Positions 1-12,048 of a stretch of DNA of 64,000 nucleotides are shown one piece after another; position 1 is the stretch's first letter; every line of letters starts with the position of its first letter. Both the position numbers and the translations under genes were made by a program. Where the stretch lies: the NCBI GenBank assembly GCA_900472785.1, contig UCJH01000014.1:1-64000 (forward strand). The letters run 5' to 3'. The stretch is from Hyphomicrobiales bacterium (lineage in GTDB: Bacteria; Pseudomonadota; Alphaproteobacteria; Rhizobiales; Rhizobiaceae). The notes below the pieces were generated by a model. That model did no database searches. It was not told where the DNA came from and was given only the letters and a program-made list of their open reading frames with translations.

Positions 1-237
1 CCTTCACCGGACGCTTACTTTTCTTCGCCAGACGCGCCAAGTGAGGAGATGGGGTCAACGTCCAGCGGTCTCACATGGAGGCTGAAGCGTGAGCCGTTTT
101 TTATGGGGGAAGGAAATGGCGAGGCTATAGCCGACAAATTAACGTTGGAGGTTACAACGCAGACAGATGGCAATATCCATCGGCGCTACGTTTCCTATCG
201 TTCTGTCAGATCGAGTGAACTCAACAATGCGCAATAA
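1..237 (+). CDS. Type II secretion minor pseudopilin GspI-like, C-terminal part
   Basis: The frame is open from the first base of the window, so only the last 78 residues are seen. They contain GLTWRLKREPF followed by an LTLEV strand, the pattern of the globular beta domain of GspI-type minor pseudopilins. The stop lies 11 bp inside the next gene, which encodes a clear prepilin, so the two are probably one operon and translationally coupled. The family call rests on this weak similarity plus context; the prepilin leader that would prove it is outside the window. It would sit in the periplasmic pseudopilus tip of a type II secretion system. Confidence 0.5.
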   Translation, partial: PSPDAYFSSPDAPSEEMGSTSSGLTWRLKREPFFMGEGNGEAIADKLTLEVTTQTDGNIHRRYVSYRSVRSSELNNAQ

Positions 238-910
238 AGTTGAGCGGGAAAACAGCGCCTGTGGAGGAAAACGGCGATCAATTGACCAGGCGTATATTCG
301 CGCGTCTCCATGTTCGGAAAACGCGGGTTTTACGCTCGTTGAAATGCTGGTGGTACTCGTTATCACCGCAGTGATGGCGGCAATGATGGTGGTTGGCATC
401 CGGCAGATGCAGGCTTGGACGCAGCTTGAGGAACGGCAATCTGTCCAACTAACCCTTGAGGCTGTTGCAGATCACATATCCGGCGAACTCTCCGGAGCAC
501 TTTTACTACCCCTGTTCGAGGGGGAAAATGAAGGCTTCACCCCCATGAAAGGTACCGGCGACAGCCTTCAGTTCGTGGCGGTGATCAGAACGGGATTTTC
601 GACAAAGGGATTGCGCGAGACTTGGTATGCAACAGAACCATCTTCATCTGGACAAATCTTGGTTCGAAAATCAAGACCCCACCGCTTCCTGCAGCAGGGT
701 GAAGTGCCGGCGCTGCAAACCGATGAGTTATACGACGGTGTGACGCGACTTGAGTTTGACTATTTGATGCGTGACAGCGAGGACGTCGTTGCTTGGCTGG
801 ACACGTGGACGAAGCAGACACAACTCCCTGCCGCAATTCGGATTACAATTTATCGAACGGTGGGTCGACATGAATTGAATGCGTCTCGAACAGTCTCGCT
901 ATCACACTAA
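227..910 (+). CDS. gspJ: Type II secretion minor pseudopilin GspJ-like
   Basis: A protein of 227 residues with a type IV prepilin signal: cleavage is expected after Gly34 in GFTLVEM, with the conserved Glu at mature position 5, followed by a hydrophobic helix of about 20 residues. The mature length of about 190 residues and the RITIYRT strand near the C terminus fit GspJ. The leader is long (34 residues), so the start is uncertain; ATG 227 overlaps the upstream stop by 11 bp, while ATG 167 would lengthen the leader further. GspJ joins GspI, GspK and GspH in the pseudopilus tip. No gspK follows: the next 110 bp are noncoding and lead into the CRISPR array. Confidence 0.75.
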   Translation: MRNKVERENSACGGKRRSIDQAYIRASPCSENAGFTLVEMLVVLVITAVMAAMMVVGIRQMQAWTQLEERQSVQLTLEAVADHISGELSGALLLPLFEGENEGFTPMKGTGDSLQFVAVIRTGFSTKGLRETWYATEPSSSGQILVRKSRPHRFLQQGEVPALQTDELYDGVTRLEFDYLMRDSEDVVAWLDTWTKQTQLPAAIRITIYRTVGRHELNASRTVSLSH

Positions 911-1022
911 ACAACGCGCTTAGCACTCCGATAACCACCGATGTCCATTCGGATCGCCGCTGCTCAAGGATCGCTTCCTGCGTAAGCGTACCTATTGGTA
1001 CCATCGCTCTCGACGGTCAGAC

Positions 1023-1322
1023 CGGGCGGCTGGACCGCGTTTTCTGATCTGCTAAGCTAGGTCGCCGGCGCGGTAGCCGAGCATGACGGTTGCGGCTGGA
1101 CCGCGTTTTCTGATCTGCTAAGCTGCTGGCGAATGTCGACCGCATTTTGCTGCTGTTGCGGCTGGACCGCGTTTTCTGATCTGCTAAGCTTCCGCATCGG
1201 GCCACAGTGCGTGGTCCTTGGTTGCGGCTGGACCGCGTTTTCTGATCTGCTAAGCTTTTCCTACATCGAAGTATATGCAGATGGTGGTTGCGGCTGGACC
1301 GCGTTTTCTGATCTGCTAAGCT
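1023..1322 (+). CRISPR. Type II-C CRISPR array, 5 repeats and 4 spacers
   Basis: Five 36-bp repeats start at 1023, 1089, 1155, 1221 and 1287, separated by four different 30-bp spacers (1059-1088, 1125-1154, 1191-1220, 1257-1286). In the plus orientation the repeat begins GTTGCGGCTGG and ends TGCTAAGCT. Four copies are identical; the first has CGG in place of GTT, a degenerate end repeat distal to cas2. Complementarity to the tracrRNA-like sequence at 6086-6115 shows crRNA reads on plus, opposite to the cas genes. The end TGCTAAGCT resembles the extended -10 element embedded in Neisseria II-C repeats, so each spacer may have its own promoter. The 72 bp between the last repeat and cas2 is the other flank. 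Confidence 0.97.
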
Positions 1323-1394
1323 CGATCCTCGGTTAATCCTCTGATTCTAAAAGAAGATTGGCCGGGGTGACGGCGGCGGAAATGGGTGCCAGCT

Positions 1395-1760
1395 TTAGAA
1401 AAGCGCCAGTTGGTCGGGATTTTTCTTTCGTCGTTTTCTTGCTTGGTCAGAAAAACGGATGATATTTTCGTATTGCCGGTCGGTGAACTGGAAAATGTAT
1501 ATATCACCCCATTCGGGCAGGATGCTCTCGATCTGACGGGCATAGCTTTCAAACTGCTCCTTACCACTGCAAAAGCGAAGATAGTTGGAAAGTTGGCTCA
1601 TTTCAAAGCCTATGTCGAGAAGGCGCTGCCGGAATTTCGTGGCTGCATGGCGCTGCTTCTTGGTTTCGACCGGAAGATCGAATGTCACGAGCATCCACAT
1701 GATTCTATACCCGCTCAAATGTCGTGGCCCACTATTGGCCTTGTGAAGAGAGGCTGTCAT
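1395..1760 (-). CDS. cas2: CRISPR-associated endonuclease Cas2 (subtype II-C)
   Basis: A 121-residue protein. LSGYRIMWMLVTFDLPVET carries the Cas2 first strand with the conserved Asp (residue 28), and the C terminus NPDQLALF is typical of type II Cas2. Cas2 dimers bridge two Cas1 dimers in the spacer-integration complex. ATG at 1760 overlaps the cas1 stop (ATGA), implying translational coupling. Met21 would also give a normal-length Cas2, but the LSGYRIMW stretch before it is conserved in II-C relatives, which favours the upstream start. It is the last cas gene before the array. Confidence 0.95.
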   Translation of the reverse strand: MTASLHKANSGPRHLSGYRIMWMLVTFDLPVETKKQRHAATKFRQRLLDIGFEMSQLSNYLRFCSGKEQFESYARQIESILPEWGDIYIFQFTDRQYENIIRFSDQARKRRKKNPDQLALF

Positions 1761-2695
1761 GTGCCCTCCCGCTCAATGGACTGCTTTCCAAGTGCTGCGA
1801 GATGCAAGGCCGATGGCAGGTTTGGCAGATCCAGCCGCACCTCTCCTGTCTCGAAGCCGACCGCGACCGAATGAACGAACCGGCCGATCTGAACCGAAAG
1901 CGGCGAAACGCCTATGTCCGTATCGAGATCGAACGTGCCGATGGATGTCAGCGACCGTTTCGTTTCGGGCGAAAGGTCCGTTTTCCCGGCCGCGGCAAGG
2001 TTGAGAGCCAGTTGATCCACGAGCGGCCGATAAGGCTCCATCAGATCGTCGGCGAGCGCGAAGGCGTTGGCCCTGTTGGAGTGGAAAACGCCGATTGTGG
2101 GATGCAGGCCGGAAGCACAGATTGCCCGCGCAACGATGGCGCGTAGCACCGTATAACCATAGTTCAGAAGGACATTGACACCTTCCGCATCCGGGTCACG
2201 ATAGAAGTCAGGGCCAAAAAGGGTCTTCCAGTAGCGCCGCGCAGCCTGCGCTTCGATATTGTCTGGATCGCCTGAACGAACGTTGCGGGCAAGCATGTCG
2301 AAGGCGCCCGCCTCCAGCCCATTGGTGGCAAGTACGTGCCCCTGCATCCTGATCTTCGCGGAGACAATCCTTCGCCAGATTTGCTTTTGCAACGGTTTGG
2401 AAGCGTCAATTTGCGCGCGCAGTCTCGCACCCTGAGCATGATGGCCCTCCAGCGGCCAGACGACTGCCACCGGTGCATGGTTTGCGGCACACAATACGAC
2501 AGGGACGCCGCGCTCGGACATTTTGACAAAGACATGATTTGACCATGTGGTCCCGTGAGCATGCACGATCAGCGCGCCGACATCATCGAGCGCGATACGC
2601 CCAACCTCGTCCCCACCGTTTTTCGATACAGTGAGAAAACCCCTGTGGACGGCTAGGTGCAAGCCATCTGTCGATATATCAACAATCCGGTCCAT
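1757..2695 (-). CDS. cas1: CRISPR-associated integrase Cas1 (subtype II-C)
   Basis: Cas1 integrase, which inserts new spacers together with Cas2. The start MDRIVDIST and the strand GALIVHAHG match II-C Cas1 N termini. Metal ligands are visible: Glu in NIEAQAARRYW, His in GVFHSNRANAF and acidic residues in ALADDLMEP, so the enzyme looks intact. I chose ATG 2695, giving 312 residues; a TTG at 2713 would add six. The gene starts about 50 bp after the cas9 stop and overlaps cas2 by 4 bp. No csn2 or cas4 is present, which fits subtype II-C. Confidence 0.96.
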   Translation of the reverse strand: MDRIVDISTDGLHLAVHRGFLTVSKNGGDEVGRIALDDVGALIVHAHGTTWSNHVFVKMSERGVPVVLCAANHAPVAVVWPLEGHHAQGARLRAQIDASKPLQKQIWRRIVSAKIRMQGHVLATNGLEAGAFDMLARNVRSGDPDNIEAQAARRYWKTLFGPDFYRDPDAEGVNVLLNYGYTVLRAIVARAICASGLHPTIGVFHSNRANAFALADDLMEPYRPLVDQLALNLAAAGKTDLSPETKRSLTSIGTFDLDTDIGVSPLSVQIGRFVHSVAVGFETGEVRLDLPNLPSALHLAALGKQSIEREGT

Positions 2696-2732
2696 CCGAA
2701 CAGAGTGACGCAAAAAAATGAAACAATCATAA

Positions 2733-2748
2733 AGGGAATTTTTTCCCT
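2733..2748 (-). promoter_or_regulatory. Small hairpin at the cas9 stop / cas9-cas1 junction
   Basis: AGGGAA and TTCCCT form a perfect 6-bp stem with a 4-base loop, overlapping the cas9 stop codon; on the minus strand it is followed by only three T. It could attenuate cas1-cas2 transcription or protect the cas9 mRNA 3' end. No function is demonstrated. Confidence 0.35.
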
Positions 2749-5700
2749 ATGCACGTCCCTTCGACTGTCTCGCTTCCCTGTCTTGAGGGCCCGGGTCGAA
2801 GACCCGGCCGGCCGCATCAATCCGCACCTGCCGGCATTTGATGTCCCGCAATCCATTGTTCGCCTTGGCAAAGTAGGTGAAGGGGTCACCTTTGTCCGCA
2901 TCACGCGCCTTCAGGCTGCCGCTCTCGCGGTGGGATGCGAAATAGATCCGTTTGTCATTCGAGAATTTCACCACACGCGCAATCGTATATCCGTCGGCAG
3001 GATGCTCATAGGCCACCATGTCGTTCTGCTGAAGCTTCAGGACACGGCGAGCGGCGGGATGCTGTCTATGGAAAGGCGATTGCCAGCCCGGTTGATGGGC
3101 GTCGAACATGGACACGACCTCCGTATGCCACCTGCCATCCAGGGTCTCCCAGACCTCGTAGCGATAATTGGCATCGCCCTTGTAGCCCTTGTAGGCCTTT
3201 CCGTTGTTGTCGACGATCGGGATGACCGAGAGCGCTTCCAGCACGCGCACGCGCCTGATCCCCTTGAACTGCGGATGCCTGTCGCGAAAACGGACGAGTG
3301 CTTCCTGCAGCGCCTTCTTCTCTGTCAGGCTGCCAATGGCATCGTAAAGCGCCGACTGCAGTTCCGTGTCGCGGATCGAGGCGATATCCTTGACCTCCAA
3401 CGCCATGAACGGCTTGCGCCGCACGACAAGCGGACTGCCCTTCATATCCTGCAGCCCGGTGATGCCATAAGCGGTATCATTGTGGAGCTTGCCGGCGGTC
3501 TGGCCTTTCCCCTGCGCATAGGCAGCCCGCGACACCGTACCATGATCCGGTTTATGACTGACCGTGACACGGTTGATGCAACCGAGCAATTCTTCCCGAA
3601 AGCCCGGCCATGGCGGGTTGTCCTTGACGACCGTCCGAACGAGATCATCGAAAGCCACATCGTCCAGCCTTGCCGCCGCACCGGACATGCGCTGCAGGAG
3701 GGAGCGGCTGGTAACGCCGATGACGGCAGCGTCGATCGCGTGGTGACGATGGTCCTTGCGGTTCTTCTCCTGCGCCATCTCACCCAGATTGTGATCCGGC
3801 AAGAGAGTGTTGAGGCCCCAGTTGCGCCGCAGCAGTTCCGTCAGCCGGCCGGGCACCACATGCACCCGTTTGCGCTGGCGCAACTCACCCCATTTATCGG
3901 CTTCCTCGGACGGAAAAAGCGCGGACAGATATTCGAACGCCATGCGCGACAGATATTGCGTGTCCGTCAACTGCCGTGCCAGGAAGCCGCCTTCCGCCTC
4001 GAATTGTTGCATGGCGTCGGCGGCGAAGCGCCACCGCTTGTTCTTTGGCAGGCGCGCGGCACGCGCAAGAACCTCTTCATAGCAGTCGCGCCATTCCGGC
4101 ACGTCGGACGGTGTACGGTTGCGCTTCTGACGGTTGGCTGATTTCAGGCAAAGCAGCTTGTTCGCCTGGCTGTCATCGAGCGTTTTCGACCAGGGAAGGA
4201 TGTGATCTATATCCACTTCGCCGGAAAACAGCATGGCGATACCGATCGGTTTGCCGGAGTAAATACAGACCCGATCCTCCGGCTTGTCCTGGTTCAGCTC
4301 CTCCCAGAGCTTCAGAAGCAGCCGGTTATAGCCCGTGTCGAGCTGGCCCATTTCGATCAGCTTCTGCGAACGCCCCTCGGCTTCGCGGGTATTCTTCGCA
4401 ATCCTGCGGTTGACATCAGCCTTCTGCTTCTCGGAAAGCTGGAGGTCTCGGGCAAGTTCCACGACAATATGCCGGGGCTTGCCATGCCGCTTTATCAGCG
4501 CATTGACGACGCGGCGAAGTTGATTCAGCCCGATATGGACCGTCGGATTGGTGATACGGCCCTTGCGGATATCGTAGATATCGTCGGGATCTCCGGTGCC
4601 CGGAGGAATGTGCCGCTCCAGGATTTCCTGGTATTCCGGAAGGATGTCCAGCCCTTCATCCTGCTCTTTTGCCAGATTGCTGTGGTCGTAGCCACAACGC
4701 TTCGCCGCCTCGGATTCAGGGATCACCGCCGTTTTCATCTCCTCCAGCATGGAGGCAAGGGCCGTCTCTCCGAGCCGGCCATATCCTTCCGGCAGCGCTA
4801 TGTTGGCAATCGCGACAACACGTTCATCATCAAGGCCGAATTCGCTTTTCAGCCAATCGGAAAGGCGGGCGGGATTCTCTTCTTCCTTCAGGTGCGTGAT
4901 GATCTCCCACTGCCGCGCGCGCGGAAAACCGCCCCAGCGCACGCCGAACATCTTCGCATCCGCCAACGCCGAATTGATCTCATCACCGAGGAGATCCTTG
5001 CGCGCTTCCGATTCCTTGTTGAAAGCGAGGTCCGGTGTCAGTTTCAACGTTCTGCGCAATACCGAAAAGCTGGCCTTCCTCGAAGATTTCAGCTTCGCCA
5101 CCAGCGCGTTGCGCTCGTCGAGCGTCAGCTTGCGGTGGCTCTGGTCCGGCAGGACCACTTCGAGATCGTTGACTTCCTTGTAGAGCCGGAACTCCTGAAA
5201 CAGCGGATGCGCACGGGAAAGCCGCGCCTCCGCCGGATTGAAGGAGCAGCGGCCGACGAGCGGCTTCTTCAGTGGCCGTTGATAAAACATTACCCGGAAG
5301 AGATGCGCCCGGCGTTCCGACGTCAGAAGCTGGGGATGATGCACCGCCTGGGCGGTCCATATCTGGCGGAATTCGTCCTCCAGCAGCGATCGTTCAGGAT
5401 AGAAGGCATAACCTTCCGCATCGAACACCTCGGAACCGGCTCGCAGCCGCACCGGATGGCCATCCGCCCGGCGCATCGCCAACCAGGCGCCGAGCGTGGG
5501 AGACCCGGAACGATGCATCGCCGCCCTCAGTTCATCGATGCCGAGCGCGATCTTGCCCTTGTCGTTGTCCTTTCGGTCGGTCTTGCGGTTCGACTTGAAG
5601 CCCCGCCTCTGGCCCAGATGAAAAAGCGCCCGGCCGATATAGAAGGGTGGCAGCTTTTCGCCGAGCGCGCGGGCTCGCAAGGCATAGGGGTTGAAACCTT

Positions 5701-6025
5701 CATCGCCTCCTTCCCGATCGCCGGTCTTCCGCAACAATGTCTCCTGCTCCACCTTGTGCGCGGGCATCAGGCCGTATTCGATCATCGTGCGCAGCGTCGC
5801 CTTGCGCCGTCGCAAAGAGCGGTCGCGCCGGCGCGACATGGCGCGCGCCTCGCGACGGGCAACAGCCAGCGAGGTTTTCGTCTGCGGATCACGACCATCC
5901 GCATAGATGCGGGCACCGAGATCAACGATACGGCAGGGGTCGCCGACCTCATCCAGCGCGAATACGCACCAGCCGATGGAGTTGGTGCCGATATCGAATG
6001 AATAGAGAAGATTATTCATGCTCAT
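2747..6025 (-). CDS. cas9: Cas9 RNA-guided endonuclease, compact subtype II-C
   Basis: A Cas9 of 1092 residues, close to Neisseria Cas9 (about 1080) and far smaller than II-A enzymes. RuvC-I has Asp11 in YSFDIGTNSIGW. An arginine-rich bridge helix lies at about 57-78 (RREARAMSRRRDR). RuvC-II has Glu523 in IVVELARD. The HNH nuclease has Asp607-His608 in DIDHILPWS and Asn631. RuvC-III has His761-His762 and Asp765 in HHAIDAAVIG. All catalytic residues are present, so it should cut both strands of protospacer DNA under crRNA:tracrRNA guidance. The C-terminal 240 residues should include the PAM-interacting domain; the PAM cannot be read from sequence. The start is ATG 6025, or ATG 6019 two codons in. 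Confidence 0.98.
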   Translation of the reverse strand: MSMNNLLYSFDIGTNSIGWCVFALDEVGDPCRIVDLGARIYADGRDPQTKTSLAVARREARAMSRRRDRSLRRRKATLRTMIEYGLMPAHKVEQETLLRKTGDREGGDEGFNPYALRARALGEKLPPFYIGRALFHLGQRRGFKSNRKTDRKDNDKGKIALGIDELRAAMHRSGSPTLGAWLAMRRADGHPVRLRAGSEVFDAEGYAFYPERSLLEDEFRQIWTAQAVHHPQLLTSERRAHLFRVMFYQRPLKKPLVGRCSFNPAEARLSRAHPLFQEFRLYKEVNDLEVVLPDQSHRKLTLDERNALVAKLKSSRKASFSVLRRTLKLTPDLAFNKESEARKDLLGDEINSALADAKMFGVRWGGFPRARQWEIITHLKEEENPARLSDWLKSEFGLDDERVVAIANIALPEGYGRLGETALASMLEEMKTAVIPESEAAKRCGYDHSNLAKEQDEGLDILPEYQEILERHIPPGTGDPDDIYDIRKGRITNPTVHIGLNQLRRVVNALIKRHGKPRHIVVELARDLQLSEKQKADVNRRIAKNTREAEGRSQKLIEMGQLDTGYNRLLLKLWEELNQDKPEDRVCIYSGKPIGIAMLFSGEVDIDHILPWSKTLDDSQANKLLCLKSANRQKRNRTPSDVPEWRDCYEEVLARAARLPKNKRWRFAADAMQQFEAEGGFLARQLTDTQYLSRMAFEYLSALFPSEEADKWGELRQRKRVHVVPGRLTELLRRNWGLNTLLPDHNLGEMAQEKNRKDHRHHAIDAAVIGVTSRSLLQRMSGAAARLDDVAFDDLVRTVVKDNPPWPGFREELLGCINRVTVSHKPDHGTVSRAAYAQGKGQTAGKLHNDTAYGITGLQDMKGSPLVVRRKPFMALEVKDIASIRDTELQSALYDAIGSLTEKKALQEALVRFRDRHPQFKGIRRVRVLEALSVIPIVDNNGKAYKGYKGDANYRYEVWETLDGRWHTEVVSMFDAHQPGWQSPFHRQHPAARRVLKLQQNDMVAYEHPADGYTIARVVKFSNDKRIYFASHRESGSLKARDADKGDPFTYFAKANNGLRDIKCRQVRIDAAGRVFDPGPQDREARQSKGRA

Positions 6026-6079
6026 CCCACGCCCCGAAGAAAGTCATCTTGACGGGAGTGAAATTTTCTTGCAACCTTA

Positions 6080-6163
6080 AACATGCAAATCAGAAAACGC
6101 GGTCTGGCCGTTAACAAGCCTCGACCAGCACCAGATAAGGCGGTCCCTCCGGGGGCCGTTTTT
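6080..6163 (+). ncRNA. Predicted tracrRNA for the II-C Cas9
   Basis: On plus, divergent from cas9, bases 6089-6104 (16 nt) match the complement of the CRISPR repeat exactly. Bases 6105-6115 extend the duplex: the differences at 6105, 6106 and 6112 are all transitions that keep G-U wobble pairs, and one extra base makes a bulge. A short linker with an AGCC/GGCG pairing follows, then a terminator hairpin with five T ending at 6163. This is the anti-repeat, nexus and terminator layout expected of a tracrRNA. The 5' end is a guess; TTGACG at 6049-6054 could be its -35 but no convincing -10 follows. Confidence 0.88.
6141..6163 (+). terminator. Rho-independent terminator of the predicted tracrRNA
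   Basis: CGGTCCC (6141-6147) pairs with GGGGCCG (6152-6158) with one G-U pair across a 4-base loop, followed by five T. It closes the RNA that begins with the anti-repeat and fixes its strand as plus. Confidence 0.85.
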
Positions 6164-6199
6164 GGTTTGGGCATCAGCCTGAGTTGAGCCGAAGGCGGG

Positions 6200-6305
6200 C
6201 GACAAACCATCTTTGGTAGCTTCCGTCGTCAAATAATGAACAACGCCGACAGATCGCTACCGGGCGCCAGGCTGCAAAGAAAGCCCGGTTCGCCGGGCTT
6301 TTTTT
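6200..6305 (+). ncRNA. Candidate small RNA ending in an orphan strong terminator
   Basis: No gene lies between the tracrRNA terminator and the methyltransferase at 6459, yet a near-perfect terminator occurs at 6282-6305. Upstream, GGTAGC (6215-6220) and GCTACC (6256-6261) can pair. Either a small RNA is encoded here or this is the 3' remnant of a lost gene. I see no confident promoter. Confidence 0.3.
6282..6305 (+). terminator. Strong Rho-independent terminator with TTCG loop
   Basis: AGCCCGG and CCGGGCT form a perfect 7-bp stem around a TTCG tetraloop, followed by an uninterrupted T run to 6305. It is not adjacent to any recognised plus-strand gene other than the tracrRNA, which has its own terminator. 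It would insulate the downstream gene from the CRISPR locus. Confidence 0.85.
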
Positions 6306-6458
6306 ATTACCGGAAATTATTCGGTCGCATGGCCCAGGGGAGGATTTCGCGGATGGCGGCTTGACCGGATCGCGGGTAAAACGGCAGTTGCGACATGTGT
6401 CGTTCGAGGCGGGGCGGCCGAGCGCCATCGCTGCATTCTCGTCAGAAAATTCGGGATC

Positions 6459-7208
6459 ATGACCAAACTGCGCCAGCACTTCCTTCCCTGGATCAAAGTT
6501 CTTCTCTCGCAGGGGCTGGCCCTCGGCGGTCTTTGGCTTCTGCCCGCCAGCATCCTGCCCGGCGCGCCGCTCATCCTGCTGCTGCAGGGCATTGCGGCCT
6601 GCGCCATCGGCCGGGCCCTCGGTCTGTCGTTGCTGTGGATCCCGATCCAGATTCTGTTGCCGCTGGCGATCGCCTACAATGCCGTCGTGCCCTCCTGGGT
6701 CTATCCGGCCGCGCTCGTCTTCTGCCTGCTGATCTACTGGAACAGCGCCTCCGAACAGGTGCCGCTCTACCTGACCAATCGCAGGACATGGAAGGCCCTG
6801 AGCGACCTTGTTCAGACATCCGGCGCCCGGACATTCGTCGATCTCGGCAGCGGCATGGGCGGGGTCGTCACCTATCTGGCGCGCGCCCATCCGAGCCTGC
6901 AGGCGGTGGGGCTTGAAACGGCGCCGCTGGTGTTCCTCGCCTCGAAAATCCGAGTCATCGCGACGGGGCGCGGCAACGCAAAGGTGACCTACAAAAGCAT
7001 CTGGGAGGAGGATTTGTCCGCCCATGACATCGTCTATTGTTTCCTCTCGCCCGTGCCGATGCCGCGGATGTTCGCGAAGGCAAAGGCGGAGATGCGGCCG
7101 GGCACGCTGTTCGTCAGCAACAGCTTTGCCGTGCCGGGAAAGGAAGCGACGGATATCAGCGACGTCGCGGACGGCCGGAAGACCAGACTCTACATATACA
7201 GGATGTGA
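6459..7208 (+). CDS. Membrane-anchored class I SAM-dependent methyltransferase
   Basis: A 249-residue protein with several hydrophobic segments in the N-terminal 100 residues (about 13-33, 36-50, 55-75 and 80-95), then a Rossmann-type methyltransferase domain. The SAM-binding motif I is FVDLGSGMGG and a motif IV-like segment is HDIVYCFLSPVP. The acceptor cannot be told from sequence. It appears monocistronic, ending 6 bp before the convergent TetR gene. It is the first apparently core gene to the right of the CRISPR locus. Confidence 0.8.
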   Translation: MTKLRQHFLPWIKVLLSQGLALGGLWLLPASILPGAPLILLLQGIAACAIGRALGLSLLWIPIQILLPLAIAYNAVVPSWVYPAALVFCLLIYWNSASEQVPLYLTNRRTWKALSDLVQTSGARTFVDLGSGMGGVVTYLARAHPSLQAVGLETAPLVFLASKIRVIATGRGNAKVTYKSIWEEDLSAHDIVYCFLSPVPMPRMFAKAKAEMRPGTLFVSNSFAVPGKEATDISDVADGRKTRLYIYRM

Positions 7209-7214
7209 GGCGCC

Positions 7215-7859
7215 TCAGTCGTCGCTCTTGAGATAGCTGACGACCGCATCGGCGATCATGCCGCGATGACGCCCCATGGTCGCCGCCTCCGAGAGGTCGC
7301 GCCGGAAGATCGTGCCGAAGGTATAGCGGTTCGACACCCGGAAGAAGCAGAAGGCGCTGATCATCATGTGGATGTCGATCGGATCGGCCCGACGCCGGAA
7401 GACCCCTTGCGAAAAGCCGCGATCGAGAACGCCGGCGATGGTTTCGATGACGGAGACGTTGAGGTCGCGGATCGCTTCGGAGCGCAGCATGTGCGCAGCA
7501 TGGTGGATATTCTCGATACTGACCAGCCGCACGAAGTCCGGATTGGCCTCGTCATGGTCGAAGGTGGTCTCGATCAACGTGCGCAGCGCCGCTTCCGGAG
7601 AAAGATTGGACAGTAGGAGATCGGCCTCCAGCGTGCGGATCTTGCGGTAGGATCGCTCGAGGACCGCGAGGTACAGCCCCTCCTTGCTGCCGAAATAGTA
7701 GTAGATCATCCGCTTCGAGGTGCGGGTTTTCTCGGCAATCGCATCGACGCGGGCGCCGGCCAGGCCATGGGTCGCGAACTCTTCGGTGGCAACCAGCAGG
7801 ATATCCTCCTGCGTTCGCTTCGGATCGTTCTTTCTCCCGTTTTCCCCGCTGCCCGCCAT
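7215..7859 (-). CDS. TetR family transcriptional regulator of the TRAP/dehydroshikimate cluster
   Basis: A 214-residue TetR repressor. The N-terminal helix-turn-helix spans about 17-63, with TRTSKRMIYYYFGSKEGLY as the recognition helix region. The remainder is a helical ligand-binding and dimer domain. It is transcribed away from the TRAP operon, with about 280 bp between starts that contains a palindrome inside a candidate promoter. By position it should control the TRAP, dehydrogenase and dehydratase genes, probably responding to quinate, shikimate or an intermediate; this ligand is inferred from the neighbours only. Confidence 0.9.
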   Translation of the reverse strand: MAGSGENGRKNDPKRTQEDILLVATEEFATHGLAGARVDAIAEKTRTSKRMIYYYFGSKEGLYLAVLERSYRKIRTLEADLLLSNLSPEAALRTLIETTFDHDEANPDFVRLVSIENIHHAAHMLRSEAIRDLNVSVIETIAGVLDRGFSQGVFRRRADPIDIHMMISAFCFFRVSNRYTFGTIFRRDLSEAATMGRHRGMIADAVVSYLKSDD

Positions 7860-7992
7860 GCCCTGCGCCGCCTATCCCACCAGTTCGTTGTTTCTGCGCG
7901 CTGATTCCCGTGACGACGGTCTCCGGCGATGGGCCGCGCAAATCCTCTTCCAGTCATATTCACCTTGTCGACATCTTTCAATAGAACGGCGC

Positions 7993-8022
7993 TTGACTTT
8001 CGAACTAGTTAGTACATTTTAA
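7993..8022 (+). promoter_or_regulatory. Candidate promoter and TetR operator of the TRAP operon
   Basis: TTGACT at 7993-7998 is a good -35. The palindrome AACTAGTT (8003-8010), extended on one side as ACTAGTTAGT, lies between it and an AT-rich stretch (8013-8022) where the -10 should be. A repressor bound here would block polymerase. The -10 is not well defined. Confidence 0.45.
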
Positions 8023-8142
8023 CTGGATCGATATCGCCGAGGAGGGCGCATCGACGACGGGTCGGACGACTGCCCCATGCTTGAAGCATGGGCGCTGGCA
8101 AGCGAAGGCAGCAACCGCCCCTACACGGGAGGAGAACACCGG

Positions 8143-8706
8143 ATGACGCGGATCATCGACTTCTATTTTTTCGCCTTGAAGGTGATCATCGCATTGCTAT
8201 TGGCCGGCATGGTGGTGCTGGTTTTCGGCAATGTCGTGCTGCGGTACGCCTTCGACCAGGGCATTACCGTCTCGGAAGAACTCTCCCGCGTCTTCTTCGT
8301 CTGGCTGACCTTTCTCGGCGCCGTCGTCGCCATGCGGGAACACGGCCATCTCGGCGTCGATTCGCTGATCAAGCGCCTGCCGCCGACCGCTGCCAAGGCT
8401 GCCGTGCTGGCCGGCCAGGGGCTGATGCTGGTTGCGACCTGGCTTCTGATCAGCGGGAGCTGGACGCAGATGCTGATCAACCTGCACGCCAGCACGCCGG
8501 CCACCGGCCTTTCCATGGGCTTCTTCTACGCCGCCGGCATCGCCTTCGGCGTCCCGACGTTCCTGATCATCCTGTGGGATGCCTTCTGCGTCGCGACGAG
8601 CCGCATCGACGTCGCGACGACGGAATTCGTCCGCGACAGCGAGGAGCAGGTCGTGCTCGACCAGCACGGCGTACCGCTGTCTGCCACCGCCGCGCGCAAT
8701 CCCTAG
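8143..8706 (+). CDS. TRAP transporter small permease subunit (DctQ type)
   Basis: A 187-residue membrane protein with four predicted helices (about 9-29, 47-63, 86-106 and 126-148). GNVVLRYAF and EELSRVFFVWLTFLGA are typical of DctQ subunits. It pairs with the large permease to form an ion-driven importer in the inner membrane. ATG 8143 is preceded by GGGAGGAG, a strong ribosome site; the frame is open further upstream. The large subunit starts 9 bp after its stop. Confidence 0.93.
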   Translation: MTRIIDFYFFALKVIIALLLAGMVVLVFGNVVLRYAFDQGITVSEELSRVFFVWLTFLGAVVAMREHGHLGVDSLIKRLPPTAAKAAVLAGQGLMLVATWLLISGSWTQMLINLHASTPATGLSMGFFYAAGIAFGVPTFLIILWDAFCVATSRIDVATTEFVRDSEEQVVLDQHGVPLSATAARNP

Positions 8707-8715
8707 GAAAATGCC

Positions 8716-9996
8716 ATGACGCTCACCATTTTCCTCGGCGCATTGCTCGGTCCCATGGCGCTCGGCGTGCCGATCGCCTTTGCCCTCATTCTCAGTGGCG
8801 TCGCCCTGATGCTGTTCATGGGCCTGTTCGATGCACAGATCGTGGCGCAAAACGTGCTCAACGGCGCCGACAGCTTCCCTTTGATGGCGGTGCCCTTCTT
8901 CCTTCTGGCCGGCGAGGTGATGAACACCGGCGGGCTTTCGCGCCGCATCGTCAATCTCGCCATGGCGCTGGTTGGCCATGTCCGCGGCGGTCTCGGCTTC
9001 GTCGCGATTTTTGCGGCCTGCGTGCTCTCCAGCCTCTCCGGCTCTGCCGTGGCGGATGCGGCCGCGCTCGGCGCCCTGCTCTATCCGATGATGCTGAAAT
9101 CCGGCCATGACCCGGCGCGCACCGGCGGGCTTCTGGCCTCGGCATCGGTGATCGGCCCGATCATCCCGCCCTCGATCGGCTTCATCCTCTATGGCGTCGT
9201 CGGCGGCGTCTCGATCACGAAGCTGTTTCTCGCCGGCATCGTTCCCGGCCTGATGATCGCGCTGGCGCTCTGCGCCACCTGGATGATCGTCGCCCGCAAG
9301 GAGCAGTTCGCGCTGCCGCCGCGCCAGAGCAGTGCTGTGCGCCTCAAGGCGTTCACGGACAGCATCTGGGCGCTGATGCTGCCGGTCATCATCGTCATTG
9401 GCCTGAAATTCGGTGTCTTCACGCCGACCGAGGCCGGCGTGGTTGCCGCGGTCTATTCGCTCTTCGTCGCCATGGTCGTCTACCGCGAACTGCCGCCGTC
9501 AAGGGTCTTCGAGGTGTTCGTCTCGGCTGCGAAAATCACCTCCGTGGTGATGTTTCTCGTCGCCTGCGCAGCCGTTTCGGCCTGGCTGATCACCGTGGCC
9601 GACGTACCGGGCGATCTCGTTGCGCTGATCGAGCCGCTGATGGACAACCAGACGCTGCTGTTGCTCGCCATCATGGGGCTGGTCGTTCTCGTCGGCACCG
9701 CCATGGACATGACACCGACCATCCTGATCATGACGCCGGTGCTGATGCCGGTGATCAAGCAGGCGGGCATCGATCCCGTCTATTTCGGGGTGCTGTTCAT
9801 CATCAACAATTCGATCGGACTGATCACGCCGCCGGTCGGCACCGTGCTCAACGTCATCTGCGGTGTTTCCAAACTGTCGATGGAAGACCTGATGAAGGGG
9901 GTCATGCCGTTCCTGATCGCCGAACTGATCGTTCTTTTCCTGCTCGTTCTGTTTCCGCAACTGGTGACCGCGCCTGCGGCCTTTTTCGGACGTTGA
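8716..9996 (+). CDS. TRAP transporter large permease subunit (DctM type)
   Basis: A 426-residue permease with about 12 hydrophobic helices; it carries the substrate path of the TRAP system. Diagnostic segments are SGSAVADAAALGALLYPMM, GPIIPPSIGFILYGVVG and GLITPPVGTVLNV. Length and order (Q-M-P) are standard. It lies 9 bp after the small subunit and 72 bp before the binding protein. Confidence 0.96.
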   Translation: MTLTIFLGALLGPMALGVPIAFALILSGVALMLFMGLFDAQIVAQNVLNGADSFPLMAVPFFLLAGEVMNTGGLSRRIVNLAMALVGHVRGGLGFVAIFAACVLSSLSGSAVADAAALGALLYPMMLKSGHDPARTGGLLASASVIGPIIPPSIGFILYGVVGGVSITKLFLAGIVPGLMIALALCATWMIVARKEQFALPPRQSSAVRLKAFTDSIWALMLPVIIVIGLKFGVFTPTEAGVVAAVYSLFVAMVVYRELPPSRVFEVFVSAAKITSVVMFLVACAAVSAWLITVADVPGDLVALIEPLMDNQTLLLLAIMGLVVLVGTAMDMTPTILIMTPVLMPVIKQAGIDPVYFGVLFIINNSIGLITPPVGTVLNVICGVSKLSMEDLMKGVMPFLIAELIVLFLLVLFPQLVTAPAAFFGR

Positions 9997-10068
9997 ACCT
10001 GAACCGCCTCTTTCAAGGCAAGACTGCAACCGGCCGGCGGGAGAGACCGGCCCATTAGGGAGGAAAGC

Positions 10069-11085
10069 ATGCTGAACACACTGACGAAACTGGCGATCGG
10101 GATCGCCTTGCCGCTGGCGCTTCTGGCCGCCGGGCCGGCATCCGCCGAGGTTCGCGAATATACGTTGAAATTCGCCTCGGCGAACAACAAGGGTCACCCG
10201 CAGGTGACGGGCATGGAGAAATTCGCCGAACTGGTGAAGGAAAAAAGCGGCGGCAAGATCGACGTCAAGCTGTTCCCGGGCGGCGTGCTCGGCGGCGACG
10301 TGCAGACCGTCTCGGCGCTCCAGGGCGGCGTGATCGAGATGACCGTGCTCAATGCCGGCATCCTGGCGAGCAACGTAAAGCAGTTCGGCGCGGTTGACCT
10401 GCCCTTCCTGTTCAAAAACGGCGAGGAAGCCGACAAGGTCATGGATGGTCCGTTTGGCACCGGCTTGATCGACCTGCTGCCCGATACCGGTCTCGTCGGC
10501 CTCGGCTACTGGGAACTCGGCTTCCGCAACCTGACGAACAACCGCCATCCCGTGGCCAAGCTCGAGGATATCAACGGCCTGAAGATTCGCACGATCCAGT
10601 CGCCGATCCCGATCGCGCTGTTCAACAGCCTCGGCGCCAATGCCGTGCCGCTGCCCTATACCGAGCTCTACACCGCGCTGGAAACGGGCACGGTCGACGG
10701 GCAGGAAAACCCGGCCGCCAACATCCTGAATGCCAAGTTCTTCGAAGTGCAGAAGTACATGACGGTCACCCGCCACCAGTACAATCCGCAGATCGTGCTG
10801 ATCAGCAAGAAATTCTGGGACGGCCTGAACGACGAGGAAAAGGCGGTTTTCCAGTCCGCCGCGACCGAGGCGCGCGACTACCAGCGCAAGGTCTCGCGCG
10901 AAGCCGACGCCAAGGCGATCGAGGCGATCAAGGCAACCGGCATGGAAGTGACCGAGTTGAGCCCGGAAGAGACCCAGAAGCTGCGCGACGCGGTCAAGCC
11001 GCTGATCGAAAAGTTCAGCGCCGACATCGGCGCTGAGACGGTCGCACAGCTAATGAAGGAACTCTCCGCCGCCCGCGGCCAGTAG
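10069..11085 (+). CDS. TRAP transporter periplasmic substrate-binding protein (DctP type)
   Basis: A 338-residue periplasmic binding protein with a signal peptide (cleavage after about residue 26, ASA-EV). The segments LKIRTIQSPIPIALFNSLGANAVP and YTALETGTVDGQENPAANI are the usual DctP substrate-binding region, including the arginine that binds the carboxylate. GGGAGGAAAGC precedes the ATG. The downstream genes suggest quinate, shikimate or dehydroshikimate as ligand, an inference from context. A 12-bp hairpin follows the stop. Confidence 0.94.
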   Translation: MLNTLTKLAIGIALPLALLAAGPASAEVREYTLKFASANNKGHPQVTGMEKFAELVKEKSGGKIDVKLFPGGVLGGDVQTVSALQGGVIEMTVLNAGILASNVKQFGAVDLPFLFKNGEEADKVMDGPFGTGLIDLLPDTGLVGLGYWELGFRNLTNNRHPVAKLEDINGLKIRTIQSPIPIALFNSLGANAVPLPYTELYTALETGTVDGQENPAANILNAKFFEVQKYMTVTRHQYNPQIVLISKKFWDGLNDEEKAVFQSAATEARDYQRKVSREADAKAIEAIKATGMEVTELSPEETQKLRDAVKPLIEKFSADIGAETVAQLMKELSAARGQ

Positions 11086-11091
11086 GATAAT

Positions 11092-11122
11092 AGGCCGACC
11101 CGCTTCTCCGGCGGGTCGGCCT
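11092..11122 (+). promoter_or_regulatory. Intercistronic hairpin after dctP
   Basis: A perfect 12-bp stem (11092-11103 with 11111-11122) around a 7-base loop starts 6 bp after the dctP stop. No T run follows, so it is unlikely to terminate fully; it probably stabilises the upstream mRNA and lowers read-through into the catabolic genes. Confidence 0.6.
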
Positions 11123-11166
11123 GCACACCGACGCATTCGCCCACAGTGAATTCATGGAAGCCGAAG

Positions 11167-12048
11167 ATGACGGACACGCTCCTGGAACAGATGACGACGG
11201 GCCTGAAGCCGCTCAAGGCCGGATTGATCGGCTCGGGGATCCAGGCCTCGCTGACGCCGGCGATGCATATGCAAGAAGGCACAGCGCAGGGTTTTTCCTA
11301 CGATTACGAGTTGATCGACCTCCATCGGCTGGGCGCGTCCGTTTCCGATCTGCCGCGGCTCCTGAAGGATGCTGAAGATCGCGGCCTTTGCGGCCTCAAC
11401 ATCACCCACCCTTGCAAGCAGGCCGTCATCGACCATCTCGACGACCTCTCGCCAGAGGCGCGCTCGCTCGGCGCCGTCAACACCGTCATCCTGAAGGATG
11501 GCCGGCGGTATGGTCACAACACCGACTGGTGGGGTTTTGCCGAGAGTTTTCGACGCGGGCTTCCCGATGCCGAGCTGACGGCTGCCGTCCAGCTGGGTGC
11601 CGGCGGGGCGGGCTTCGCAACGGCCTATGCGATCCTTTCGCTCGGCCTCAGGCAGCTTTTCGTCTTCGACCGCGAGCAGGATCGCGCCGAAGCGCTGGCC
11701 GATACGATGTCGGCGCTGTTTCCGCAGGCGAAGATTTCCGCAGGAACGGAACTGGCGGCCGCAATGGAAACCGCGTCCGGGCTCATCCATGCCACGCCGA
11801 CCGGCATGGCCAAATATCCCGGCATCCCGCTCGCCCCTGACCTGCTGCAGCCAAGGCACTGGGTGTGCGAAATCGTCTATTTCCCGCTCGAAACCGAACT
11901 CTTGCGCCAAGCGAAGCTTCGCGGCTGCCGGACGCTCGACGGCGGCGGCATGGCGGTTTTCCAGGCGGTCGGCGCCTTCGGGCTTTTCACCGGACGCACA
12001 CCCGATGCGGCGCGCATGCTGGCGCATTTCAAGACCATGACGCGCTGA
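11167..12048 (+). CDS. Shikimate/quinate 5-dehydrogenase (AroE-like, catabolic)
   Basis: NAD(P)-dependent dehydrogenase interconverting shikimate (or quinate) and the 3-dehydro acid. The N-terminal domain has GLNITHPCKQ with the catalytic Lys and YGHNTDWWGF with the catalytic Asp. The Rossmann loop is LGAGGAGFA, and DGGGMAVFQAVGAF is a conserved C-terminal segment. About 293 residues from ATG 11167, which has GGAAG upstream; ATG 11146 is an alternative. Location between a TRAP importer and a dehydroshikimate dehydratase argues for a catabolic role rather than aromatic amino acid synthesis. Whether it prefers quinate or shikimate is not visible. Confidence 0.88.
   Translation: MTDTLLEQMTTGLKPLKAGLIGSGIQASLTPAMHMQEGTAQGFSYDYELIDLHRLGASVSDLPRLLKDAEDRGLCGLNITHPCKQAVIDHLDDLSPEARSLGAVNTVILKDGRRYGHNTDWWGFAESFRRGLPDAELTAAVQLGAGGAGFATAYAILSLGLRQLFVFDREQDRAEALADTMSALFPQAKISAGTELAAAMETASGLIHATPTGMAKYPGIPLAPDLLQPRHWVCEIVYFPLETELLRQAKLRGCRTLDGGGMAVFQAVGAFGLFTGRTPDAARMLAHFKTMTR

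Follow-up and report, generated by a model that had tools for sequence, protein, structure and literature searches.

A compact cas9 gene in a member of the Rhizobiaceae raises the question of whether it belongs to a working clustered regularly interspaced short palindromic repeats (CRISPR) immune system, which protospacer adjacent motif (PAM) its product would read and how the gene might be controlled. The gene lies in the window, i.e. the 64,000-nt stretch of DNA that was analysed (Hyphomicrobiales bacterium, Rhizobiaceae; assembly GCA_900472785.1, contig UCJH01000014.1, positions 1-64,000, forward strand). The window is the start of this contig (i.e. C81) and the CRISPR array sits near the contig end. 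Positions 1023-6163 hold a complete, apparently intact and ordinary type II-C CRISPR-Cas9 locus. We put a probability of roughly 0.8 on the reading that this locus provides working II-C immunity with an NGG PAM and operates without a cas9 self-guide, i.e. a repeat-like copy near the trans-activating CRISPR RNA (tracrRNA) gene whose preceding 11 nt match the upstream region of the cas9 gene of the same locus. Such an element occurs in the nearest relative, Pararhizobium polonicum, and would have been lost from the window after the two split.

The array, cas2, cas1, cas9 and the tracrRNA gene all lie within 1023-6163, as an earlier note on this DNA had claimed. The array (1023..1322, plus strand) contains five 36-nt repeats (GTTGCGGCTGGACCGCGTTTTCTGATCTGCTAAGCT) at a period of exactly 66 nt and four mutually unrelated 30-nt spacers (spacer 1, 1059..1088; spacer 2, 1125..1154; spacer 3, 1191..1220; spacer 4, 1257..1286; all plus strand). 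Four of the five repeats are identical; the first (i.e. the oldest, extra repeat; 1023..1058, plus strand) deviates at its first three bases and has an intact 3' half. A candidate leader (1323..1394) separates the last repeat from the minus-strand open reading frames (ORFs) of cas2 (1395..1760; TIGR01573, 62 bits) and cas1 (1757..2713; TIGR03639, 249 bits), which are followed by cas9 (2747..6025, minus strand; TIGR01865, 585.5 bits, cut-off 100). In the cas2 and cas1 ORFs, similarity to the family starts only at residues 21 and 9, respectively, and the true starts are therefore probably downstream of the first listed start codons, near 1700 and 2695, respectively. Assignment to type II follows from a Cas9 with RuvC and HNH domains, a tracrRNA and identical repeats with unrelated spacers. 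The II-C assignment follows from the presence of cas9, cas1 and cas2 only; neither csn2 nor cas4 was found in a search confined to the locus, where there is no space for another gene between the array and the tracrRNA. A single Cas9 match, a single Cas1 match and a single array of the GTTGCGGCTGGACCGCGTTTTCTGATCTGCTAAGCT repeat were detected genome-wide, and no extra repeat copies (up to three mismatches in 27 nt) were found elsewhere in the 5.38 Mb assembly.

The Cas9 protein of 1092 aa falls in the compact II-C size range, matches a profile (i.e. TIGR01865) that spans all Cas9 proteins and has Pfam matches to HNH_4 and RuvC_III. Alignment of 30 Cas9 proteins (i.e. the window Cas9 and 29 relatives) bore out the further claim that every RuvC and HNH catalytic residue is present: all seven (D11, E523, D607, H608, N631, H761 and D765) were found, six being invariant in 30/30 sequences and D607 being conserved in 29/30 (one E). 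A structure prediction for the Cas9, made with 12 sequences, was discarded as too poor (mean predicted local distance difference test score of 67.3; predicted template modelling score of 0.36). The tracrRNA gene (6085..6163, plus strand) comprises an anti-repeat (6085-6110), the nexus GTTAACAAG and a terminator hairpin (6141-6158) followed by a T-run; the hairpin and T-run (6141-6163) were found by folding and were not listed by a simple terminator scan. The repeat and tracrRNA, when linked by a short loop, fold at a z-score of -8.0 relative to shuffled sequences, and the repeat:anti-repeat duplex has an energy of -47.6 kcal/mol, the altered first repeat pairing similarly (-48.4). At the gathering threshold, Rfam reported only a transfer RNA (tRNA) and no tracrRNA in the window, and the tracrRNA call, which agrees with the earlier note, therefore rests on complementarity, folding and homology.

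The anti-repeat complements the 5' portion of the repeat on the plus strand, and we infer from this and from homologous loci that the array is oriented on the plus strand and that CRISPR RNA (crRNA) would be read from this strand. A putative tracrRNA promoter (6049..6077, plus strand; TTGACG, 17 nt, CAACCT) was read by eye by analogy with TTGACG-17-CAATAT in A. vitis (L041); its second hexamer is weak and a consensus scan did not call it. A promoter candidate inside the repeat (CTGGAC-17-TAAGCT) was likewise read only by eye. Repeat mutations were surveyed in the 27 arrays nearest to cas genes, by a method to which repeats with more than 12 changes are invisible. First repeats were mutated in 16/27 arrays, with 44 changes in the 5' half and five in the 3' half; last repeats were mutated in two (one change in the 5' half, three in the 3' half) and changes were present in 9/442 inner repeats. 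This asymmetry of first repeats fits a dispensable handle and a 3'-end promoter that is still required. As the relatives' last repeats are mostly unchanged and their first repeats often mutated, and in line with the II-C literature, the acquisition end would lie at the cas2 side. The decay of first repeats is known behaviour: published accounts describe the first, extra II-C repeat as the oldest, with new spacers entering downstream and mutations clustering in the first 15 nt (PMC12080349), and II-C acquisition at the 3' end with promoters in repeats (PMC12638026).

Array organization differed in five Bartonella loci (L035, L036, L040, L042 and L043), where arrays are split into several short blocks. 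Some blocks start with a changed repeat (TTGACC, about 16 nt, TAAACT or TAGAAT) that looks like a sharper promoter, and the last repeat of some blocks is degraded at the 3' end.

Cas9 loci are thinly distributed around the window, in agreement with the earlier note's view that CRISPR is uncommon in Rhizobiaceae. A Cas9 match (E ≤ 0.001) was detected in 34/394 genomes of a family sample, some of these matches being weak, and in none of the seven other sampled genomes of the same genus. In samples of the order and class, 38/397 genomes matched at E ≤ 1e-60 and 56/385 at E ≤ 1e-30, respectively (own genome included in the family, order and class counts). The same note had proposed a database search and tree for this Cas9; these support the locus as a new member of its group but not as an isolated one. 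The nearest ortholog found, in P. polonicum F5.1 (L031, NZ_LGLV01000009.1), has a 92% identical Cas9 and an identical repeat consensus. It is followed by A. vitis S00303 (L041, 70%), by four genomes from a different family of the same order (68-70%) and, overall, by more than 20 full-length Cas9 relatives at 50-70% identity. The window and P. polonicum proteins are sisters (Shimodaira-Hasegawa-like approximate likelihood ratio test support of 100) on a tree made only of relatives of the window Cas9, which does not place the clade within II-C. DNA identity to L031 is 87.6% over about 5 kb from the array to the cas9 start (1026-6013) and 94.9% over the tracrRNA stretch (6083-6179), and no further similarity was found between window positions 1-12000 and 15 kb of L031. 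Genes that remain intact at such a distance suggest selection, and the patchy presence and sharp island of similarity fit horizontal spread, which we infer for the locus.

The PAM was predicted from the spacers of the nearest ortholog and is probably NGG, in place of the unusual motif at which the earlier note had hinted for small II-C Cas9s. Five P. polonicum spacers have protospacers at ≥28/30 identities, four flanked by NGG and the fifth, spacer 26, by mixed sequences. Spacer 1 matches R. leguminosarum plasmid pRlX5 (28/30, CGG) and spacer 7 matches S. medicae plasmid pSU277_3 (30/30, TGG). The spacer 7 target occurs in 37 Sinorhizobium plasmid records, of which five were read, and TGG was present at 8/8 loci inspected with up to two mismatches; the ORF holding this target (L067) looks by eye like a phage terminase large subunit. 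Spacers 9 and 22 each match at 29/30 with GGG, the spacer 22 target being itself a spacer in another genome's array, of which the GGG forms a part. The region between residues 850 and 1092, taken as the WED/PAM-interacting part, is 91.8% identical between the window and L031 proteins. For EHCas9, a compact II-C enzyme of 1070 aa whose kin are alphaproteobacterial, an NGG PAM has been measured according to its published description (PMC10281378). A novel PAM for the window Cas9 was rejected in favour of NGG despite the non-NGG matches, considered below, of the window and of two orthologs (L032 and L033).

The array in which the spacer 22 target lies (L065, genome G330) has a 61-nt period and repeats of about 29 nt, and one of its spacers shares 29 nt with P. 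polonicum spacer 22. By its repeat this array looks like type I-E; the sharing implies that a common invader supplied spacers to two different CRISPR systems.

Relatives of the window locus carry an additional element. In 13 of 96 loci, a repeat-like copy is present near the tracrRNA, and the 11 nt preceding this copy match the upstream region of the cas9 gene of the same locus (up to one mismatch) at an NGG-flanked site. A first set of copies was chosen by repeat likeness alone (alignment score of at least 14), giving second, direct repeat-like copies near the tracrRNA in 8/30 loci. Six of these copies matched within two mismatches next to NGG (L056, 0; L047, L049 and L060, 1; L055 and L058, 2); of the other two, L059 had no match and L063 matched at 11/11 with a GGA flank. 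Resampled upstream regions yielded a mean of 0.13 such loci and a maximum of two (1000 trials), as compared to the six observed. A fixed rule (i.e. ≤5/16 mismatches for repeat likeness, ≤1 mismatch for the guide, PAM not demanded) was then used to scan 66 loci, producing 19 rows, nine with NGG, and adding L031, L032, L033, L034 and L044, all at 11/11 with NGG. Control guides shifted by 12-27 nt gave none or one NGG match per shift (rows printed); larger shifts, which in some loci reach into CRISPR arrays and give up to six NGG matches, are not clean controls. Application of the same rule to 30 further loci gave nine rows, four with NGG (L240, one mismatch; L243, L244 and L249, none), as compared to five NGG matches in total for 16 shifted controls (mean 0.31, at most two per shift).

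Membership of the 13 loci was decided as follows. L047 was counted although its copy (8/27 mismatches) fails the 5/16 cut. Outside the 13 are L055 and L058 (two mismatches with NGG), the loci with GGA- or TGA-flanked matches (L063 and L259, no mismatches; L180 and L255, one) and L196 (genome G153), an exact match flanked by GGT. Rows left out of the 66-locus scan were L032 +693 (two rows, one with AGG, past the tracrRNA), L047 +715, L053, L175, L185 and L187 (two rows), and those left out of the 30-locus scan were two extra L249 rows and L252. The PAM of L063, L180, L255 and L259 may be NGA and not NGG, as their Cas9s are more distant from that of the window. Absence of the element is uncertain for some of the 96 loci, since five yielded no Cas9 of full length and the upstream DNA is short or missing in a few (none for L268, 196 nt for L250). 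Four plasmid-borne loci searched with generic repeats (two Novosphingobium, Pseudosulfitobacter and Azospirillum) had no NGG self-guide with up to one mismatch, the Azospirillum locus giving only GC-rich background rows. Guide and target in L196 are the same as those of the congener L033, where the flank is GGG, and this self-target may have lost its PAM.

Guides were specific to their own loci. A cross table of 14 loci gave own-locus mismatches of 0, 0, 0, 0, 0, 0, 1, 1, 1, 2, 2, 5, 5 and 6 (i.e. 0-2 in 11/14), as compared to 10/182 cross-locus values of 0-2, the single zero among which came from two genomes of one genus. Own-locus values are unbiased for only eight of the 14, since six (L031-L034, L044 and L196) entered via their match. 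This specificity indicates that guide and target change together between species. Of six perfect cases that were extended, the match ended at 11 nt in five and reached 14 nt in L033.

Two architectures were distinguished. In L031, L032, L033, L034 and L044, the tracrRNA nexus lies 56-67 nt after the copy on the same strand, such that one RNA would constitute a natural single guide; in the best folds of L033, L034 and L044, the copy pairs with the anti-repeat at 13-15 of 16 positions. In L047, L049, L056, L058, L059 and L060, a hairpin identified by eye stands between the copy and the tracrRNA, and the copy therefore looks like a separate crRNA-like gene. The tracrRNA of L055 is on the opposite strand to the copy. 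P. polonicum also has two degenerate repeats at array spacing that lie on the same strand as cas9, 29-130 nt upstream, and point to it. Situated between cas9 and the self-guide, these may be the remains of a small array or a repeat promoter that cas9 now uses.

No such element was detected in the window. The cas9-tracrRNA gap is about 60 bp as compared to about 420 bp in P. polonicum, and in the stretch comprising the cas9 start and this gap (6014..6082) neither similarity to the longer gap nor a self-guide was found. A scan of 8 kb surrounding the locus gave no repeat-like copy with a matching guide. Across the whole 64 kb, 139 repeat-like sites gave one row with a single mismatch, from a copy on the minus strand at a distance of about 54 kb, and a further three rows with two mismatches, all of which were taken as chance given the number of trials. 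The rest of the genome gave one 16-mer with a single mismatch, outside the array on contig C33, which is likewise attributed to chance given five control matches. On a quickly made Cas9 tree, the window belongs to an 11-row clade (support of 89) in which the guide is present in seven members and absent from four (the window, L041, L241 and L242). The smallest number of guide changes is three in this clade and ten over all rows (nine without the two-mismatch cases), a count that cannot separate gain from loss. In 14 guide-bearing loci with the nexus string (i.e. the 13 plus L055, L058 and L196, less L055 and L244), the nexus lies at least 256 nt from cas9, as compared to less than 100 nt in the four clade members without a guide. 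A guide cannot be deduced from a long gap alone, as 11/59 other loci without a recognised guide also exceed 256 nt. Loss of the self-guide from the window is the simplest reading and is likely.

From these comparisons of sequence, a working scheme can be proposed for the window. Transcription of the array would run along the plus strand and probably start at promoters within the repeats; the crRNA would pair with the tracrRNA and host RNase III would trim the duplex. Cas9 would then cut invader DNA adjoining an NGG PAM, and Cas1-Cas2 would insert new spacers at the cas2 side. With no guide aimed at its upstream region, cas9 would not be self-repressed by that route, the element having probably been lost after the window and P. 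polonicum diverged. A wider proposal, which we consider reasonably likely, is that alphaproteobacterial II-C loci control themselves through natural 11-nt self-guides to NGG-flanked sites upstream of their own cas9, the window being a natural loss. An 11-nt guide with a diverged repeat, whether as one RNA with the tracrRNA or in a separate crRNA-like gene, would bring Cas9 to its own upstream region, where the match would be too short for cutting and should block transcription. Guides and targets would differ among species and match within each, the element being repeatedly gained and lost; the window tracrRNA, within 100 bp of cas9, would resemble those of the three other guide-less members of the 11-member clade.

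Several results weigh against these proposals. A consensus promoter scan called none in the repeats, and searches of GenBank phages found no good match to the window array (best E of 0.3). The spacers searched as one string gave no rows even at E 10, a result made doubtful by the N separators; array stretches gave weak matches only, including A. vitis spacers in 19 Streptomyces phages (E 0.2), and no protospacer was found for 32 A. vitis spacers. The locus might be intact but idle, having been recently received, being poorly expressed or decaying, and no longer acquiring spacers. Its four spacers, as compared to 30 in P. polonicum and 33 in A. vitis S00303, the lack of a Cas9 match in the other sampled genomes of the genus and a cas9 upstream region wholly unlike that of its sister would all fit, but the genes are open, the catalytic residues are kept, the last four repeats are identical and repeat:tracrRNA pairing is intact, making idleness quite unlikely. 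A longer or different PAM, with GG present by chance in a few protospacers, would be in keeping with the matches of the window itself: spacer 3 matches viral contig L094 at 26/30, with the last 21 nt exact and a 3' flank of CCA, and spacer 1 has two weak matches (four and five mismatches) flanked by TCG and CCT, the last 21 nt of spacers 1, 2 and 4 having no match in the viral contig set. P. polonicum spacer 26 is flanked by CGG at one locus, CCA at another and other sequences elsewhere. The 65-66% orthologs L032 and L033 gave nine match rows from five spacers, of which only one (four mismatches) had NGG; two of these rows are exact matches of one spacer with a CTC flank, one in its own genome. 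GGA- and TGA-flanked self-guide targets of more distant relatives point the same way. Set against this are the four independent NGG protospacers of the 92% ortholog, the 13 NGG self-guide targets of relatives, the recurrence of NGG in scans that made no PAM demand (9/19 and 4/9 rows), and the measured NGG of a compact, alphaproteobacteria-related II-C enzyme (PMC10281378), and another PAM is thus improbable.

The self-matching copies might, in turn, be products of chance or of local duplication and not regulators. The 11-mers are short and many positions were searched, roughly half of the rows obtained when no PAM was required are background or lack NGG, and two of the eight first copies had no NGG match. 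Folding of the fused RNAs adds two points against regulation: the best fold for L031 hides the guide and lacks a repeat:anti-repeat helix, which forms at 15/16 positions only in a structure that leaves the guide free and lies 2.9 kcal/mol higher, and L032 pairs at 4/16 positions in its best fold and at nine with the guide free. Chance or duplication is nevertheless doubtful in view of the six matched copies among eight against the resampled expectation, the excess of own-locus over cross-locus matches (with the stated bias for six of 14), the 4/30 new loci against their control mean and the cessation of the match at 11 nt in five of six perfect cases, which is unlike duplication.

Known systems share parts of this picture. 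P. polonicum F5.1 resembles the window in its repeat, Cas9, PAM-interacting region and tracrRNA, and differs in having 30 spacers and a long cas9-tracrRNA gap with a self-guide and two degenerate repeats, with no similarity in the flanks compared. The EHCas9 system from the El Hondo metagenome, compared through its published description and not by sequence identity, is a compact II-C system with cas9-cas1-cas2, 36-bp repeats and a tracrRNA upstream of cas9, its closest homologues being alphaproteobacterial (PMC10281378). For self-guides, the closest parallel is tracr-L, an extended tracrRNA of some II-A systems that, according to the available text of a 2021 report, is not found in other subtypes and for which an 11-nt match beside a PAM permits binding whilst cleavage appears to be prevented (PMC8616872; II-A details in PMC11417352). 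The S. pyogenes form resembles the relatives' element in its 11-nt guide, a repeat-like part ahead of the anti-repeat and a cas upstream target at a PAM (PMC8616872, PMC11417352); it differs in being known from II-A, and the window itself has no such element. Small CRISPR/Cas-associated RNA (scaRNA) of the F. novicida II-B system is, like the copies in L047, L049, L056 and L060, a stand-alone diverged repeat with a short guide, but is described as targeting lipoprotein genes (PMC8730458), and that of N. meningitidis is described as acting on efeO mRNA (PMC13431127). Predicted scaRNAs in Neisseria and Pasteurella II-C systems and a single-guide-like RNA in Listeria II-A have been reported (PMC6199352); a word search of the available text of that paper returned no mention of a cas9 promoter, rhizobi or alphaproteobacteria. 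Searches of the open literature as far as it was available, with subscription papers mostly outside their reach, turned up no description of a II-C self-guide directed at cas9; the element is accordingly unreported as far as these searches go, which falls short of showing that it is new.

Some neighbouring and incidental features were also recorded. An ORF at 167-910, adjoining the array, resembles a type II secretion minor pseudopilin, with a prepilin N-terminal motif and weak full-length matches. A GC-rich hairpin followed by a T-run at 6282-6305, about 120 bp past the tracrRNA terminator, was seen by eye and is absent from the scan; there is no obvious transcript for it to end. Spacer 37 of L033 (with L125) has an exact own-genome match, flanked by CTC, in a gene that looks by eye like a methionyl-tRNA synthetase, and is probably the newest spacer, since it is cas2-proximal.

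With this locus, an already populous group gains a compact Cas9 that probably reads NGG, and the comparison with related loci outweighs the locus itself in importance. If the self-guides work, self-repression by Cas9 would not be a speciality of II-A and would have arisen or persisted in II-C in two architectures, and both the 11-nt rule and the PAM would be readable directly from genomes. The window and P. polonicum, with 92% identical Cas9 proteins and without and with a guide, respectively, would then constitute a natural experiment on the costs and gains of self-repression.

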